A DNA stretch of 64,000 nt from Rhodovulum visakhapatnamense (GTDB lineage Bacteria > Pseudomonadota > Alphaproteobacteria > Rhodobacterales > Rhodobacteraceae), in NCBI RefSeq assembly GCF_004365965.1, contig NZ_SOEB01000012.1:1-64000 (forward strand), written 5' to 3'. A program made the translations under genes and the position numbers. The notes beneath the pieces are model-generated. The model searched no databases. It saw nothing but the letters and a program-made list of their open reading frames with translations, and had not been told where the DNA came from. This document shows positions 52,967 through 59,504 of the stretch, piece by piece. Positions within the stretch are counted from its first letter, which is position 1. Every line of letters starts with the position of its first letter.

Positions 52967-54055
52967 CTACTGCTGCAGCGCGGCCAGATAGCCGATCCCG
53001 GCCGCCAGCGCGAGACCCAGCACCACGGCAATGGCGATCTTCCAGGCCGACCAGGGCCGTTCGCCCCGAACCCGGCCGCTGCGTCCGTTGACGACGAAGC
53101 GGTAGGTCTTGCCGCGATAGCGGTAGGCGGCCAGCCAGACCGGCAGCAGAACATGCTTGAAGGTGACCGCCGAAACCTGGGTCTCGAGCCGGTCGATCCG
53201 CTGGCTGTCGCCGCCGATGTCGAACATCACGTCGCGGCGGATCACCCGGTCCATGGTCCGGCGCGCCTCGGCAAAGCCGGTTTCCAGATCGACCGTGTAG
53301 CCTTCGGCCCGGAAGCCCGCCAGATACTGCGGCCGGTAGGGCAGCATCAGCGACAGGTCCCAGGGTTCGAGCGCGTCGGTATAGCGTTTCGGAAGGCTGG
53401 CCGAGGCCAGAACCAGCACGTCGTCGAAGAACCGCGCGACCCGGCCCGAAACCGGGGTCCAGCGGATCTTCTGCACCTGCACCGTCTCCGACCGGCCCTC
53501 GCGCATCACCCGGCGGGTTTCGTGATAGATCGTGCCCCGCGCGCCGCTGTACTGAGATCTCGTGTCGGCATCGAAGGTCCAGTACGGGACGTAGATGCCC
53601 TCCATCCGGCGGCCCTTGCGGGCATAGGCCTGCAACCCGTTCGGCGCGAACCAGAGCCGCCCCAGCCAGTCGGTCATTGCCTTGTGCGCCTCGGCCTCGG
53701 ACAGCGCGAAGGGCAGCACGCCCTTGGGCTTGATCCGCCGCTGAACCCCGGTTCCGGTGACGACGGGGGTCGCGCAGAACGGGCATTCGGCGGCATGGGT
53801 GGCCTCGTCCATCTCGAACTCGGCGCCGCAATTGGGGCATTTGATCTGCCGGACGTCCTGCATCTCGGCCCCCGGCAGCGCCGCGTCGAGCGCCGCGCGG
53901 TAGTCCAGCTCGGCCAGCGGCGCGTCCCAGGGGCCGGTGCCCTCGACGGGCTCCTCATGGCCGCAATGGTCGCAGATCAGCCGACCGTCCTCGGGAGAGA
54001 ATCGCAGGTCTGCCCCGCACTGGTCGCAGGGAAAGCGGTGGTCGGGGGCGGTCAT
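52967..54055 (-). CDS. Double zinc-ribbon (TFIIB-type) membrane protein, YdjG-like
   Basis: A 362-residue protein. Two N-terminal zinc ribbons (CDQCGADLRF ... CDHCGHEE, and CPNCGAEFEM ... CPFCATP) are followed by a beta-rich middle domain with WTFDADTRSQYSG and a C-terminal TM helix (AIAVVLGLALAAGIGYLAAL) ending in the cytoplasm or periplasm after four residues. In B. subtilis the zinc-ribbon protein YdjG works with the SPFH protein YdjI to recruit PspA at stressed membrane. The adjacent SPFH gene (7-bp gap) makes the analogy reasonable; it is inferred. Confidence 0.8.
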   Translation of the reverse strand: MTAPDHRFPCDQCGADLRFSPEDGRLICDHCGHEEPVEGTGPWDAPLAELDYRAALDAALPGAEMQDVRQIKCPNCGAEFEMDEATHAAECPFCATPVVTGTGVQRRIKPKGVLPFALSEAEAHKAMTDWLGRLWFAPNGLQAYARKGRRMEGIYVPYWTFDADTRSQYSGARGTIYHETRRVMREGRSETVQVQKIRWTPVSGRVARFFDDVLVLASASLPKRYTDALEPWDLSLMLPYRPQYLAGFRAEGYTVDLETGFAEARRTMDRVIRRDVMFDIGGDSQRIDRLETQVSAVTFKHVLLPVWLAAYRYRGKTYRFVVNGRSGRVRGERPWSAWKIAIAVVLGLALAAGIGYLAALQQ

Positions 54056-54062
54056 CCCGGGC

Positions 54063-55193
54063 TCAGACCCCGGGCGGGGGCGGTGGCGGGGCGACGGTGA
54101 AAAGCCGGGCAAGCTCGGGCACCTCTTCGGCGCGCTTCCAGCCGTCCTGGCCCTGGGTCCAGACAAAGCTGTCGCGGCGGAAGCTGCCCTCGCCCGCCAT
54201 CCGTCCCAGCCGGGCCATCGAGAACGGCCCCGAGGTCTGGCCGTTCTCGGCGATGTGCCAGACATGTTCGACCGGCGGCGGGGGCGGGGGGACCGGCATC
54301 GCGGCCTCGGCCGCCGGGCTGCGCGGCACCGCGCCCCAGGGGCCGGTCTGGGCGACGCTCTGGGCCATCGCCATGCCCAGGCCCGCGCCGATCCCCGCCG
54401 CCATGCCGCCGCCCGCGGGGCTTTGGGCGGCCTCGGTCATGGCTTCGGCCGCGGAATACTGGGTGTAGCGGCCCAGATCGCCCGCGATCCCCATCGAGGT
54501 GCGCTTGTCCAGCGCCTTTTCGACCTCGGGCGGCAGGCTGATATTCTCGATGTAGAATTCGGGCATGGTCAGGCCGTAGGCCTCGAGCGTTTTCGACACC
54601 TCGCCCGAAATCAGCTTGCCCAGATCGGCGGTGTTGGCGGCCATGTCCAGCACCGGGATACCGGAGGCCGCGATCACGCGGGAAAACTCCTGCACGATGA
54701 TGTTGCGGATCTGAAAGCCGATCTCGTCCATGGTGAATTCGCCATCGGTGCCGACGATCTCGACCATGAAGCGGGCCGGGTCGGTGACGCGGACCGTATA
54801 GCTGCCGAAGGCGCGGATCCGGGTCGGGCCGAATTCGGGGTCGCGCAGCATCACCGGGTTCTTGGTGCCCCATTTGAGGTCGGTGAAGCGGGTGGTGTTG
54901 ACGAAGTAGACTTCCGACTTGAAGGGAGACCGGAAGCCGTGATCCCAGTGCTGCAGCGTGGTCAGCACCGGCATGTTGTTGGTTTCCAGCATGTAGAGGC
55001 CGGGCGTGAACACGTCGGCCAGCTGGCCCTCATGAACGAAGACCGCCGCCTGACCCTCGCGCACTGTCAGTTTGGCGCCGTACTTGATGGCATGGCCCTC
55101 GCGTTCGAACCGCCAGACCATGGTGTCGCGGGTGTCGTCGACCCAGTGGATGACGTCGATGAACTCGCCGGAGAGAAAGTCGAAAATGCCCAT
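54063..55193 (-). CDS. SPFH-domain protein with C-terminal GYF_2 domain (YdjI/virion-core-like)
   Basis: A 376-residue protein. An SPFH/flotillin-like domain occupies about residues 30-230 (VREGQAAVFVHEGQLADVF, RAFGSYTVRVTDPARFMVEI), followed by a Gly/Ala/Met-rich segment (GGGMAAGIGAGLGMAMAQSV), a run of prolines and a GYF_2 domain (HVWHIAENGQTSGPFSMARL). The annotation virion core protein is used for relatives. It probably forms oligomers on the membrane. ATG 55193. Confidence 0.85.
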   Translation of the reverse strand: MGIFDFLSGEFIDVIHWVDDTRDTMVWRFEREGHAIKYGAKLTVREGQAAVFVHEGQLADVFTPGLYMLETNNMPVLTTLQHWDHGFRSPFKSEVYFVNTTRFTDLKWGTKNPVMLRDPEFGPTRIRAFGSYTVRVTDPARFMVEIVGTDGEFTMDEIGFQIRNIIVQEFSRVIAASGIPVLDMAANTADLGKLISGEVSKTLEAYGLTMPEFYIENISLPPEVEKALDKRTSMGIAGDLGRYTQYSAAEAMTEAAQSPAGGGMAAGIGAGLGMAMAQSVAQTGPWGAVPRSPAAEAAMPVPPPPPPVEHVWHIAENGQTSGPFSMARLGRMAGEGSFRRDSFVWTQGQDGWKRAEEVPELARLFTVAPPPPPPGV

Positions 55194-55274: not shown

Positions 55275-56240
55275 TCAGGCGTCGCCCCCCATCAGCTCGG
55301 CCGCCATCTGCTCGACGATGGGGCGGGCCTCGGCCGGGGTCATGCCCGGGCGCAGGCGCCGGTCGTAAAGCATCTTCAGCAGCAATTCGTCATGGGGCGT
55401 CAGCAGCGCGAATTCCTCGTCGTCGTTGAAGATCGACGGGCGTACCGAGGGGTTGTCATTGGCCAGCCCCAGCCCCTGGGACAGTTCCTCATGCACGCAG
55501 GATTGGCGCAGGCGGTCGGGATGTTCGCCGCGGATCACGGCGACGGCGCTGGAGTAGGTGCTGGACTCGCCCTTCGAGAAGGCCAGCACCAGGCAGAAAG
55601 TCGATCGCGGCATCACGGCGATCGTGCTTTGGGCGGCGACGTCGATGCCCGGGATCAGACGTTCGAGGTCGCCACCCAGGCGGCGGCGCTCGTCCTCATT
55701 GACGATGAAGACCTGAAAATTGGCCTGTTCGGGGCTGGTCACCCACATCGGCATCCCGGTCACCCGCGCCAGCCGCCGGACATAGGCCGCGATCTCGGCC
55801 CGGTCCCGGGTGCGCTGGGCGGCCGGGATCGTTGCGCCGAAGGTGATGCCAAAGCGGACGGGTTGTTCCCAGCGCCGGAGCCGGCTTTCGGTCTCGCGCG
55901 CCACCAGATGCCCGCCGCGGCTGACATATTCGTCGAACAGCGCGATCCGCACGAAATTCTCGACCAGCGCGCGGCGGGTGAAAGGCACATCGGTCTCGCC
56001 GCCATCGGTCCGCAGCAGGCCGCGCGACAGAAGATCGGCCTGCACCCGGGCGTAATGCCGGGCCAAAGCCTGGCTGTCGGGCGAAAGCTCCGGCTGCACC
56101 GCTTCGGCGGGGCGGGCGGCGGGCCGTGTCTCAGGCGGCGCGGGCGCCATCTGACAGCCGGCCAACGCCACGGCAAGGGCGCTGGCCAGCGCCCCCGGCC
56201 CGAGCCCCGGCCGAAAGGAAGGGCGCGATTTCGGCGTCAC
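55275..56240 (-). CDS. DUF2927 lipoprotein
   Basis: A 321-residue lipoprotein: signal peptide with lipobox ALAGC (Cys about residue 29), then the DUF2927 domain, with FGATIPAAQRTRDRAEIAAY and the conserved SCVHEELSQGLGLANDN, an HExxxQ pattern that resembles a metallopeptidase helix but lacks a full HExxH. Function unknown; found widely in Rhodobacterales next to telA. It lies eight bases after telA. Confidence 0.85.
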   Translation of the reverse strand: MTPKSRPSFRPGLGPGALASALAVALAGCQMAPAPPETRPAARPAEAVQPELSPDSQALARHYARVQADLLSRGLLRTDGGETDVPFTRRALVENFVRIALFDEYVSRGGHLVARETESRLRRWEQPVRFGITFGATIPAAQRTRDRAEIAAYVRRLARVTGMPMWVTSPEQANFQVFIVNEDERRRLGGDLERLIPGIDVAAQSTIAVMPRSTFCLVLAFSKGESSTYSSAVAVIRGEHPDRLRQSCVHEELSQGLGLANDNPSVRPSIFNDDEEFALLTPHDELLLKMLYDRRLRPGMTPAEARPIVEQMAAELMGGDA

Positions 56241-56247
56241 GATGCGG

Positions 56248-57429
56248 TCAGGCCTCCGGCAGGGCGCCGGCGCCCTGCGCCCGCGACTTGGCGGAGGCGA
56301 GGGTGTCGCGCAGCTCTGCCTCCATCTTTTTCAGATCGTCCTCGGCCTGGGCGCGCCGGGTCTTGCCCTCGTCGGCAATGGTCAGGCTTTCCTGGATCGT
56401 CGCGATCAGATCGGCATTGGCCTTCTTGACCGCCTCGATGTCGAACACGCCCCGTTCCATTTCCTCGCGCACGGTCCTGTTGGCCTGGCGCAGGTTGGCG
56501 GCATTGGCGGTCAACAGCTCGTTGGTCAGGTCGCTGGCCTCGCGGACCGCCAGCGCGGCCTCTTTCGAGCGCTGGATGGTGACCGCCTGCGCCAGCTGGG
56601 TTTCCCAAAGCGGCACGGTATTGACCAGGGTCGAGTTGATCTTGCTGACCAGCGACTTGTCGTTTTCCTGCACCAGCCGGATCGAGGGCAGCGACTGCAT
56701 CGTCACCTGGCGGGTCAGCTTGAGGTCATGCACCCGGCGTTCAAGATCGTCGCGCGCGGCGCGCAGGTCGCGCAGCTCCTGCGCCCGGATCACCTGATCG
56801 GCCTCGGGGGCCGCGGCGACCTCGGCCTCCTTGGCGGGGATCTCGGTGGCGTCGAGAGCTTTCAGCTTCTCTTCGCCCGCGGCGATGTAAAGCGCGAGCT
56901 CGTCGTAGAAATCGAGGGTCTTCTCGTAAAGCTTGTCGAGCGACTTGATGTCCTTCAGCAGCGTGTGTTCATGGGTCAGCAGCCGGTCGGTGATCGAGTC
57001 GATCTGGCCCTGAACCGTCTCGAATCGCGCGACGAACTTGGCGAAGGGCGCAGTGCGCCCCATCAGCTTTTCCCACCAGCTCGCCTCGCGCCGCACGTCG
57101 AGTTCGGACACCGAAAAGCCCCGGATCGTGGTCACGATCTCGCGGAGCGAGTCGCCTGCGGGCCCCACGTCCTTGTTGCGCACATCGGCCAGCATGGCCT
57201 GGCTGATGGTCTGCAACTCGGCCTGGGCACTGGACCCGAAACCGATGATCGAATTGCTGTCCGACATGTCGATCTCGGCCATGCGGGCGCGGATGGCGTC
57301 GGCCACCGGCGGCGCGGCGCCGTCCAGCGGGACCAGATCCCGGGCCGGTTCGGGCAGGACCGCCAATGTCACTTTTTCAACTTCGGCGACGTCCTGCGCC
57401 GCCTTCAGGCGATTGTTGTCCGAGCTCAT
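56248..57429 (-). CDS. telA: TelA-family (toxic anion resistance) protein
   Basis: A 393-residue, almost all-helical TelA protein: EASWWEKLMGRTAPFAKFVA and LTHEHTLLKDIKSLDKLYEK are family blocks, with heptad-like helices throughout. Despite the name, a direct role in tellurite resistance is doubtful; genomic studies link TelA to ter-type stress systems and envelope defence. Its start overlaps xpaC by four bases, and XpaC-TelA is a constant pair. Confidence 0.92.
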   Translation of the reverse strand: MSSDNNRLKAAQDVAEVEKVTLAVLPEPARDLVPLDGAAPPVADAIRARMAEIDMSDSNSIIGFGSSAQAELQTISQAMLADVRNKDVGPAGDSLREIVTTIRGFSVSELDVRREASWWEKLMGRTAPFAKFVARFETVQGQIDSITDRLLTHEHTLLKDIKSLDKLYEKTLDFYDELALYIAAGEEKLKALDATEIPAKEAEVAAAPEADQVIRAQELRDLRAARDDLERRVHDLKLTRQVTMQSLPSIRLVQENDKSLVSKINSTLVNTVPLWETQLAQAVTIQRSKEAALAVREASDLTNELLTANAANLRQANRTVREEMERGVFDIEAVKKANADLIATIQESLTIADEGKTRRAQAEDDLKKMEAELRDTLASAKSRAQGAGALPEA

Positions 57430-58340
57430 GCATTCTCTCCCGAAATGGGCGCGACGGGCGCCGTGCGGATGCCGTCCCGTTGCAGCCGGTCGCGCAAGAC
57501 TTCGATCTCGACGTCAAGATCGGTGCGGTCGTCCTGGATCAGTGCCCGGGTGCGGGCGGCGAAATTGTCCTCGAGATCGCCCAGAAGCGCCTCGTAATCC
57601 TGGCGGGCGGTGACATCGCGGGTGCGGGCGTAAAGATCGGCGAACTTCACGGTCGCATCGCGCGCGCCCAGCAGATAGACGACCAGATAGCGCCGGGCGG
57701 CGGTCAGATCGCGCGGGTCTTCCTCGACCGTGCGGAACATGTCGCGCACGACCGCCTGAAACCGTTCGACCCTCGCCTCGAGCCCGCGGTCGCCGGCGCG
57801 CCGGATCGCCTCGGACATGGTCGCCAGGTGCTTTTCGGCCTCTTCGATGGCGCGCGCCACGCGGTCCTGCTGAAAGCTGTCGATGCCTTCCATTCCCTTG
57901 TCGCCGAGCGGATCGAGGCCGAAGGCAAAGCTGTGGAGCGCGGTGCCCAAGACGGCATAGATCGCCGGGGTCAGCCAGTCGCCGCCGCCGATCCCCGCCA
58001 GCAAGAGCCCCGCGCCGGTGAGACCCGAGCCCAGGATCTTGCGCGGCAGCGCCGGGCGGCGGGCCACCTTGCGGGCGGCCCAGGCATCCTCGGCCCGCAG
58101 CCCCTCGCGGGTCAGCCAGGCGGCAAGGATCAGCACGCCGAAGGCGCCAAGCGTCAGTGCCAGCCCCGCCGGGTCGGAAAAGAAGGCGCGCGGCAAAAGC
58201 GGCAGGGGCGCGAAGAACATCGCATTGGCCCGGCCCGCGGCCCGTGCCGGACGCCGCCCCTGGAACGGATGGCGGGGCGGGGCGGCCGTCTCGGGGCCGG
58301 GCGTGCCGGGGCTGTAGCGGCCGCCGAACCGGTTGGCCAT
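57426..58340 (-). CDS. xpaC: XpaC-family membrane protein
   Basis: A 304-residue protein. A basic, Pro-rich N-terminal tail, two TM helices (PAGLALTLGAFGVLILAAWL at about 57-76; KILGSGLTGAGLLLAGIGGG at about 101-120) and a cytoplasmic helical domain (LRDRLQRDGIRTAPV at the end) are seen. XpaC is named for 5-bromo-4-chloroindolyl phosphate hydrolysis but is better known as TelA's partner. ATG 58340 overlaps the stop of a 27-codon gene (TGATG). Confidence 0.88.
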   Translation of the reverse strand: MANRFGGRYSPGTPGPETAAPPRHPFQGRRPARAAGRANAMFFAPLPLLPRAFFSDPAGLALTLGAFGVLILAAWLTREGLRAEDAWAARKVARRPALPRKILGSGLTGAGLLLAGIGGGDWLTPAIYAVLGTALHSFAFGLDPLGDKGMEGIDSFQQDRVARAIEEAEKHLATMSEAIRRAGDRGLEARVERFQAVVRDMFRTVEEDPRDLTAARRYLVVYLLGARDATVKFADLYARTRDVTARQDYEALLGDLEDNFAARTRALIQDDRTDLDVEIEVLRDRLQRDGIRTAPVAPISGENA

Positions 58341-58423
58341 CACGCGCCCCCCATGACGGCCACGTAGAAGACCAGCGCGATCAGCAGGAAGAACGACAAT
58401 TTCTGCAACCCGGTGCCCGACAT
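58340..58423 (-). CDS. 27-residue single-pass membrane peptide upstream of xpaC
   Basis: A short gene read as MSGTGLQKLSFFLLI followed by ALVFYVAVMGGA. It has one clear TM helix (about residues 8-24) after a short N-terminal segment. The start has AGAGGGG three to four bases upstream, and the stop TGA shares bases with the xpaC ATG, so translation should be coupled. A good promoter match lies upstream (58450-58479). These three facts are the support; the peptide has no family I know. It may be a partner of XpaC's TM helices. Confidence 0.65.
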   Translation of the reverse strand: MSGTGLQKLSFFLLIALVFYVAVMGGA

Positions 58424-58449
58424 GATCCCCTCTGTCTTCACGGCCTTCC

Positions 58450-58479
58450 CTTATACATGGGATGCGACGCGGCTGTTAA
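58450..58479 (-). promoter_or_regulatory. Probable promoter of the xpaC-telA operon
   Basis: On the minus strand TTAACA (58479-58474), an 18-bp spacer and TATAAG (58455-58450) lie 27 bases before the small-peptide start. It is the best -10 match in this part of the window. Confidence 0.5.
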
Positions 58480-58505
58480 AAGCAAGTGTCGGCGGGTTTT
58501 GCCGA

Positions 58506-59504
58506 TCAGCCGGGCGGAGCCTTGCCGCGCGGCCGCATCGGCCGTGCGGCGCCGGGCGTGCCTGCGCCCCGGGGCGGCTTTCGGCCCGCGACGCCGTCCG
58601 GCGTCTTGGCCGAAGCTGGCCCCTCCGACCGGCGCGGGGTCTTTGAGCCCGAAGGCTTCGGGCCGCCCGATTTGGCGCCCGGCTTTGACCCCGGGGTCTT
58701 GGGAGCACCTGGTTTTCCGGCGCCCGATCTGGGGCGGAGGGATCGCGGCCGGGCGGTTGCCTCGCCCTCGGGGCTTTCAAGACCCAGTTGGTCGCGCAGC
58801 ACGCGGCCGCGGATTTCCTCGACCTCGCCCGCCTTCAAAGCGCCAAGCTGGAACGGGCCATAGCTGATCCGGATCAGCCGGTTCACGGTCAGTCCGACAG
58901 CCTCCATGGCGCGGCGGATCTCGCGGTTCCGGCCTTCGCGCAGGCCGACGGTCAGCCAGGCATTGGCGCCCTGCTGGCGGTCGAGCGTGATCTCCATCGG
59001 CCGGAAACTCTCGCCCGCGATGACGATGCCCTCGCGCAGCGGGGCAAGCGTGGCGTCTTCGGGCGTGCCCTTGACCCGGACGCGGTACTTGCGCAGCCAG
59101 CCGGTCGACGGCAGTTCCAGCCGCCGCTTGATGGCGCCGTCATTGGTCAGAAGCAGCAGGCCCTCGGAATTGAGGTCGAGCCGTCCGACCGACATGACGC
59201 GGGGCATGTCCTCGGGCAGCTTGTCGAAGACCGTCTCGCGGTCCTTCTCGTCCTTGGCGGTGGTCACGAGGCCCGCGGGCTTGTGATAGAGCCAGAGCCG
59301 CGGCCGGTCGGCCGCCGCCAGCGGGGCGCCGTCGACGGCGATCCGGTCGGCCGGCGTGACGTTCAGCGCAGGGCTTGCGATCCGGCGGCCGTTCACCGTC
59401 ACCCGCCCGGCGGCGATCATCCGCTCGGCCTCGCGCCGCGACGCGAGCCCTGCCCGCGCCAGGATCTTGGCGATCCGCTCGCCCTCTTGTCCGGTCTTGT
59501 CCAT
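58506..59504 (-). CDS. RsuA/RluB-family pseudouridine synthase with basic tail
   Basis: A 332-residue rRNA pseudouridine synthase. An N-terminal S4 domain (RIAKILARAGLASRREAERM) is followed by the catalytic Asp motif in VGRLDLNSEGLLLLTNDG and GRNREIRRAMEAVGLTVNRL. The order of blocks fits RluB (23S U2605). The last 80 residues are Lys/Pro/Gly-rich (SKPGAKSGGPKPSGSK), a probable RNA-binding tail. Start ATG 59504 lacks an obvious ribosome binding site. Confidence 0.9.
   Translation of the reverse strand: MDKTGQEGERIAKILARAGLASRREAERMIAAGRVTVNGRRIASPALNVTPADRIAVDGAPLAAADRPRLWLYHKPAGLVTTAKDEKDRETVFDKLPEDMPRVMSVGRLDLNSEGLLLLTNDGAIKRRLELPSTGWLRKYRVRVKGTPEDATLAPLREGIVIAGESFRPMEITLDRQQGANAWLTVGLREGRNREIRRAMEAVGLTVNRLIRISYGPFQLGALKAGEVEEIRGRVLRDQLGLESPEGEATARPRSLRPRSGAGKPGAPKTPGSKPGAKSGGPKPSGSKTPRRSEGPASAKTPDGVAGRKPPRGAGTPGAARPMRPRGKAPPG

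Follow-up and report, generated by a model that had tools for sequence, protein, structure and literature searches.

The xpaC gene in the 64 kb window (the whole stretch of DNA that was analysed) is preceded by a short overlapping frame that almost certainly encodes a real translated protein, a membrane microprotein of 27 residues, as judged from its conservation and its pattern of substitutions. This microprotein is probably a small partner of XpaC, either a subunit or a stabiliser, a reading that draws on their near-strict co-occurrence, on the coupling of the two genes and on the stress roles published for XpaC and TelA/YaaN elsewhere. The features of the locus are collected in Table 1.

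Table 1. Features of the xpaC locus in the window, from the microprotein gene outwards.
Feature	Position	Strand	Evidence or remarks
Microprotein gene	58340..58423	-	Frame MSGTGLQKLSFFLLIALVFYVAVMGGA, profile match, pN/pS, K/R asymmetry
Shine-Dalgarno AGAGGGG and spacer of the microprotein gene	58424..58434	-	Sequence; SD-like motif in relatives
C-terminal Gly-Gly codons GGG GGC as putative xpaC Shine-Dalgarno, with TGATG overlap	58338..58351	-	Gly codon bias
Promoter-like TTAACA-18-TATAAG	58446..58475	-	Sole match of at least 10/12 in the window
Terminator-like stem-loop 3' of the upstream pseudouridine synthase gene	58489..58505	-	1 found, 0.5 expected: weak
xpaC	57426..58340	-	PF10112, 8.6e-27; polytopic membrane protein with C-terminal helical part
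telA	56248..57429	-	PF05816, 7.4e-107; with xpaC in 74/74 named loci
DUF2927 gene	55275..56240	-	PF11150; 70/74 named loci
SPFH/Band-7 and GYF_2 gene	54063..55193	-	PF13421, PF14237; 72/74 named loci
Zinc-ribbon membrane protein gene	52967..54265	-	41/74 named loci, many cut by flank length

The microprotein frame in named relatives

The frame runs on the minus strand from an ATG at 58423-58421 to a TGA stop at 58342-58340. An earlier note on this DNA had pointed out a short frame with a transmembrane helix, an AGAGGGG ribosome binding site, a TGATG overlap with xpaC and an upstream promoter match, all without naming a strand, and each of these is present. The AGAGGGG motif stands directly 5' of the microprotein ATG, in the context CAGAGGGGATC-ATG, and the TGA stop has one A in common with the xpaC ATG (58340), in the string GTGATGG. 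A GTG at 58343 is an alternative start for xpaC; relatives, however, keep an MA.RFGG start. We found no annotated record of the locus in the collections searched, and the one close plasmid match (H1) is unannotated.

With the XpaC protein as query we obtained 74 named loci, the closest from Rhodovulum kholense, which together with the window make 75 rows. The earlier note held that loss or breakage of the frame in relatives that keep xpaC would speak against the gene, and we did not encounter this: 74 of the 75 rows (the window and 73 loci) have a hydrophobic frame, 24-31 codons long, whose end lies 2-16 bases before xpaC, and the exception, L097 (Tropicimonas), lacks the short form and carries a two-helix one that spans at most 69 codons. 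For L056, L068, L090, L093 and L104 the short frame lies inside a longer two-helix frame, and its start may be unused. An SD-like motif is found at -16..-4 of the frame in 70 of 74 rows versus 993 of 3700 shuffles. The product is most likely a single transmembrane helix with an N-in/C-out orientation by the positive-inside rule; 60 of 74 rows have K or R among the first 10 residues and 6 of 74 among the last 8. Of the 35 members that are 27 residues long, 34 retain Tyr20 and 33 have Phe or Tyr at position 11.

Shuffled sequences rarely produce such a frame. Hydrophobic ORFs that reach 24 codons or more and end at the xpaC start are present in 69 of 75 named rows versus 91 of 1500 shuffled upstreams, and in 121 of 128 rows from the wider family survey described below versus 127 of 2560 shuffled upstreams (L197 and L167 were omitted from the latter control). 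The comparison of synonymous and nonsynonymous changes that had been proposed in the earlier note reveals purifying selection in the microprotein frame only. Over 10 disjoint pairs of 27-residue members, taken from a set of 34 (L049, which has an unknown base, was omitted), the pooled pN/pS is 0.32, versus a null of 0.85 (s.d. 0.13) when the same substitutions are moved to random equivalent sites, and none of 1000 such draws was as low. The other two reading frames give 0.98 and 2.2. Between the window and R. kholense, the microprotein differs by three synonymous changes and one non-synonymous change.

The promoter-like site upstream of the gene is the only match of at least 10/12 when both strands of the window are scanned. 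The nearest relatives have a weaker site in the same place, scoring 9/12 in R. kholense L040 and 8/12 in L032 and L044. Over 74 rows the scores barely exceed those of shuffled sequence (9 or more in 8 of 74 versus 40 of 740 shuffled), and the promoter as a family-wide feature is unsupported past the nearest relatives, its place being kept only in the closest ones. We also dropped a reading of CTTGC...CCCAT as what we took to be a heat-shock-type promoter motif, the spacing being too long. A pseudouridine synthase gene lies upstream in 57 of the 74 named loci, and at the terminator-like stem between it and the microprotein gene the sequence CTTGCTTTT is conserved in several close relatives.

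Distribution in the family and the two-helix form

PF10112 was detected in 134 of 149 Rhodobacteraceae genomes (one per genus). We read 130 of these family loci; G008, G083, G090 and the source genome, G000, lie outside the 130, and second matches per genome were excluded. A profile of the named peptides, trained with the start of L096 corrected and L066 omitted, reaches 10 bits or more beside xpaC for 116 of these 130, a count that is not independent of the training, since some named loci are maybe conspecific with family genomes, while the off-target and shuffle controls are independent of it. Elsewhere in the six frames of the 130 loci (364 kb) no profile match reaches 10 bits, the best being 4.2, and the source genome as a whole contains a single match, at the microprotein locus, with an E-value of 1.6e-12. 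The other 14 loci comprise nine with a match below 10 bits and five without a match. By eye, four of the latter (L016, L138, L153 and L200) have a form that is divergent or two-helix; the fifth, L197, is an XpaC paralogue with a low score and lacks the microprotein.

We also searched with the profile the 15 family genomes that have no PF10112 match. Fourteen contain nothing better than E 0.06. The fifteenth, G119, has a strong match (6.2e-12) near a contig end, where the microprotein is followed by an xpaC gene that runs off the contig. Eight of ten positive-control genomes were matched beside xpaC at E of 0.003 or lower; G001 and G018, which have divergent or long forms, escaped detection. 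The profile thus falls short of full sensitivity, and the absence from 14 genomes is good, if imperfect, evidence.

Among 289 genomes of the class, PF10112 is present in 17, four of them Rhodobacteraceae. The xpaC loci of the 13 genomes from other families yield no genuine match to the profile next to xpaC, the best score being 1.4 bits, which indicates that XpaC can do without the microprotein. L229, one of these loci outside the Rhodobacteraceae, carries a short hydrophobic frame of another kind at 1148-1228, which reads MRALGFLLLFGTTGLFCLRAIGSAGF from its ATG and has a stop that begins 20 bases before xpaC; it may be an analogue of the microprotein.

In 21 of the 130 family loci, among them L012, L122, L136, L154, L170 and L192 with 15 more, the same frame is extended by an N-terminal helix that has a start of its own, giving a product of 62-81 residues that typically begins with M.RL followed by a hydrophobic stretch. 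L167, where the XpaC match is a fragment, was tallied without a form in this count of the two forms, and the short form is visible there. On the XpaC tree we counted 10 changes between short and long form versus 19.7 in shuffles, on a FastTree topology with many weak branches. On this weak tree the two-helix form is clustered without being of single origin, and the switches are scattered. Another variation concerns L002, L123, L175 and L199, in which a Cys follows the hydrophobic part, reminiscent of what we take to be the lipobox of small lipoproteins.

The junction with xpaC

In all 74 rows with a short frame, the stop of the microprotein is found 2-16 bases 5' of the xpaC start base, and the junction reads TGATG, TAATG or TAGTG in 48 of them. 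The offset from stop to start is spread over all three frames (55, 15 and 4 of 74). Forty-four rows have a short form ending in Gly-Gly, and 36 of these have GGG or GGA as the first Gly codon, versus 573 of 1786 Gly codons within xpaC (Fisher p 3e-11). The second Gly codon has no such bias (12 of 44 rows). The first codon begins 11-17 bases 5' of the xpaC start, and exactly 11 bases in 29 rows. This looks like the pattern expected of a Shine-Dalgarno sequence for xpaC embedded in the microprotein. The suggestion of the earlier note that translation of xpaC may depend on the short frame draws sequence support from both the close junction and the codon bias, and xpaC translation is likely to be coupled to that of the microprotein.

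The same anatomy would also suit a translated upstream ORF that acts in cis, as a coupling or leader peptide bringing ribosomes to xpaC, with a dispensable product. Such an element would account for a junction that overlaps or nearly touches in every row with the short frame and for a Shine-Dalgarno sequence within Gly codons, and the Gly-Gly motif may in part be an RNA constraint: as these codons double as the putative Shine-Dalgarno sequence of xpaC, their conservation need not concern the protein. Co-occurrence at the xpaC start could also arise if coupling, or the Shine-Dalgarno sequence alone, is what is needed. However, a leader would have no need of selection at the amino-acid level, of a conserved Phe/Tyr11, Tyr20 and helix, or of the two-helix form of 62-81 residues in 21/130 genomes, and an Rfam search gave no match. 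We consider a peptide whose main role is in cis unlikely. An attenuator was rejected, as the frames overlap by one base, leaving no space for alternative structures, and no Rfam match was obtained.

Operon context and possible function

The microprotein gene would be the first of an operon continuing with xpaC, telA and the DUF2927, SPFH and zinc-ribbon genes. The zinc-ribbon gene is the probable end of this operon, and its true start is likely to be downstream of the first listed ATG. The SPFH/GYF and zinc-ribbon proteins seem similar to YdjI and YdjG from the pspA operon of B. subtilis, a likeness that, if true, would join a psp-like set to XpaC-TelA.

The conservation of the whole block leaves room for a different partner: the microprotein may have the SPFH, the TelA or the zinc-ribbon protein as its target, or may be a regulator or sensor in its own right, and be merely co-transcribed with xpaC. 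Consistent with this, xpaC-yaaN and pspA-ydjGHI all appear as sigmaW genes in the B. subtilis regulon list (PMC3498285). Against it, the microprotein gene immediately precedes xpaC and touches it, and is absent from genomes in which no xpaC was found, and we regard another partner as distinctly unlikely. A hydrophobic type I toxin-like peptide is very improbable: it would fit the size and hydrophobicity only, and the gene is single copy, in fixed synteny across the family and inside an operon, with no Rfam match in 58000-59000 that could be an antisense RNA antitoxin (Rfam covers described RNAs only). Short ORFs abound in G+C-rich genomes, but the probability of a chance ORF, or of a part of XpaC reached by frameshifting, is negligible, the first being ruled out by the shuffles (5-6% versus 92-95% in real sequence) and by pN/pS, and a fixed frameshift or N-terminal extension of XpaC by offsets that occur in all three frames.

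A partnership with XpaC itself has parallels among small membrane proteins. KdpF, of the K+-transporting ATPase, has 29 residues and one transmembrane helix, is encoded by the first gene of its operon, which touches the next gene, and stabilises the large membrane subunits. The microprotein resembles it in being small, single-pass, first in its operon and in touching the next gene, but this next gene is xpaC and not kdpA and there is no KdpF Pfam match, so the microprotein does not belong to the KdpF family. KdpF is named as a subunit in an excerpt on small membrane proteins (PMC10903887). CydX, a 37-residue subunit of cytochrome bd, is likewise encoded in the operon of its partner and, according to extracts from one study, can be traced by synteny in spite of a very variable sequence (PMC4325964). 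Its gene, in contrast, lies 3' of those of its partner, which is a different one, and neither the PF08173 match nor the cydAB neighbours that define CydX/YbgT are found for the microprotein. With 27 residues and one helix, the short form falls within the size range of small membrane subunits (up to about 50 residues, one transmembrane helix), which the long form (21/130) exceeds, and it co-occurs constantly with one larger membrane protein, XpaC. We infer that the microprotein works like KdpF and CydX without being a member of either family. Searched at E up to 10, Pfam returned no family for the 27-mer, and no Pfam or NCBIfam model scores above its cut-off for the short or the long form; the long forms do have matches, all short of every curated cut-off, which we attribute to chance.

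The xpaC and telA genes carry the same domains (PF10112 and PF05816), in the same order, as the xpaC-yaaN envelope-stress pair. The differences are the small protein before xpaC, of which we found no description in the open-licence literature searched, and the xpaC loci of the 13 genomes from other families, which have no match to it. Operon-encoded small membrane proteins are a known kind, and this particular family appears to be undescribed in that literature. Excerpts of published work place the pair in stress responses: xpaC is up 7-fold in an E. faecium liaR mutant and is linked to LiaR and CesSR in enterococci and lactococci (PMC10269926), and disruption of the Listeria telA homologue lmo1967 led to greater susceptibility to nisin and tellurite (PMC12791056).

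Modelled by itself with AlphaFold, XpaC gives a confident structure (mean pLDDT 84) that has N-terminal hydrophobic helices and a C-terminal helical bundle. Its fold has no PDB structure match at E of 0.001 or lower among the best 50 matches listed, and its sequence has no match among solved chains at E up to 0.1. The N-terminus of XpaC has a near-invariant MA.R(F/Y)GG(K/R).SP motif in a region modelled at low confidence, and this motif is a possible docking peptide.

We propose that the microprotein is translated from its own ribosome binding site as a single-pass membrane protein. Ribosomes ending its translation would meet the Shine-Dalgarno sequence in the Gly-Gly codons and re-start at the overlapping xpaC ATG, so that the microprotein and XpaC would be made together. 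Within an envelope-stress module, the microprotein would then most likely be a small subunit or stabiliser of XpaC, its helix packed against those that XpaC has in the membrane. Whether the whole of a stronger statement holds we regard as evenly poised, namely that this is an obligate small subunit of XpaC from an undescribed microprotein family, near-universal in xpaC-bearing Rhodobacteraceae, with repeated switches between one and two helices and with a Gly-Gly motif that doubles as the ribosome binding site of XpaC.

No mechanism is established for XpaC and TelA, both of them widespread stress proteins, and a near-constant small partner across a large bacterial family would offer a handle on XpaC. 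The locus would also be a clean case of a family-conserved microprotein far below the usual gene-calling sizes and without a Pfam or NCBIfam model, and of a junction that encodes both a peptide and a ribosome binding site.
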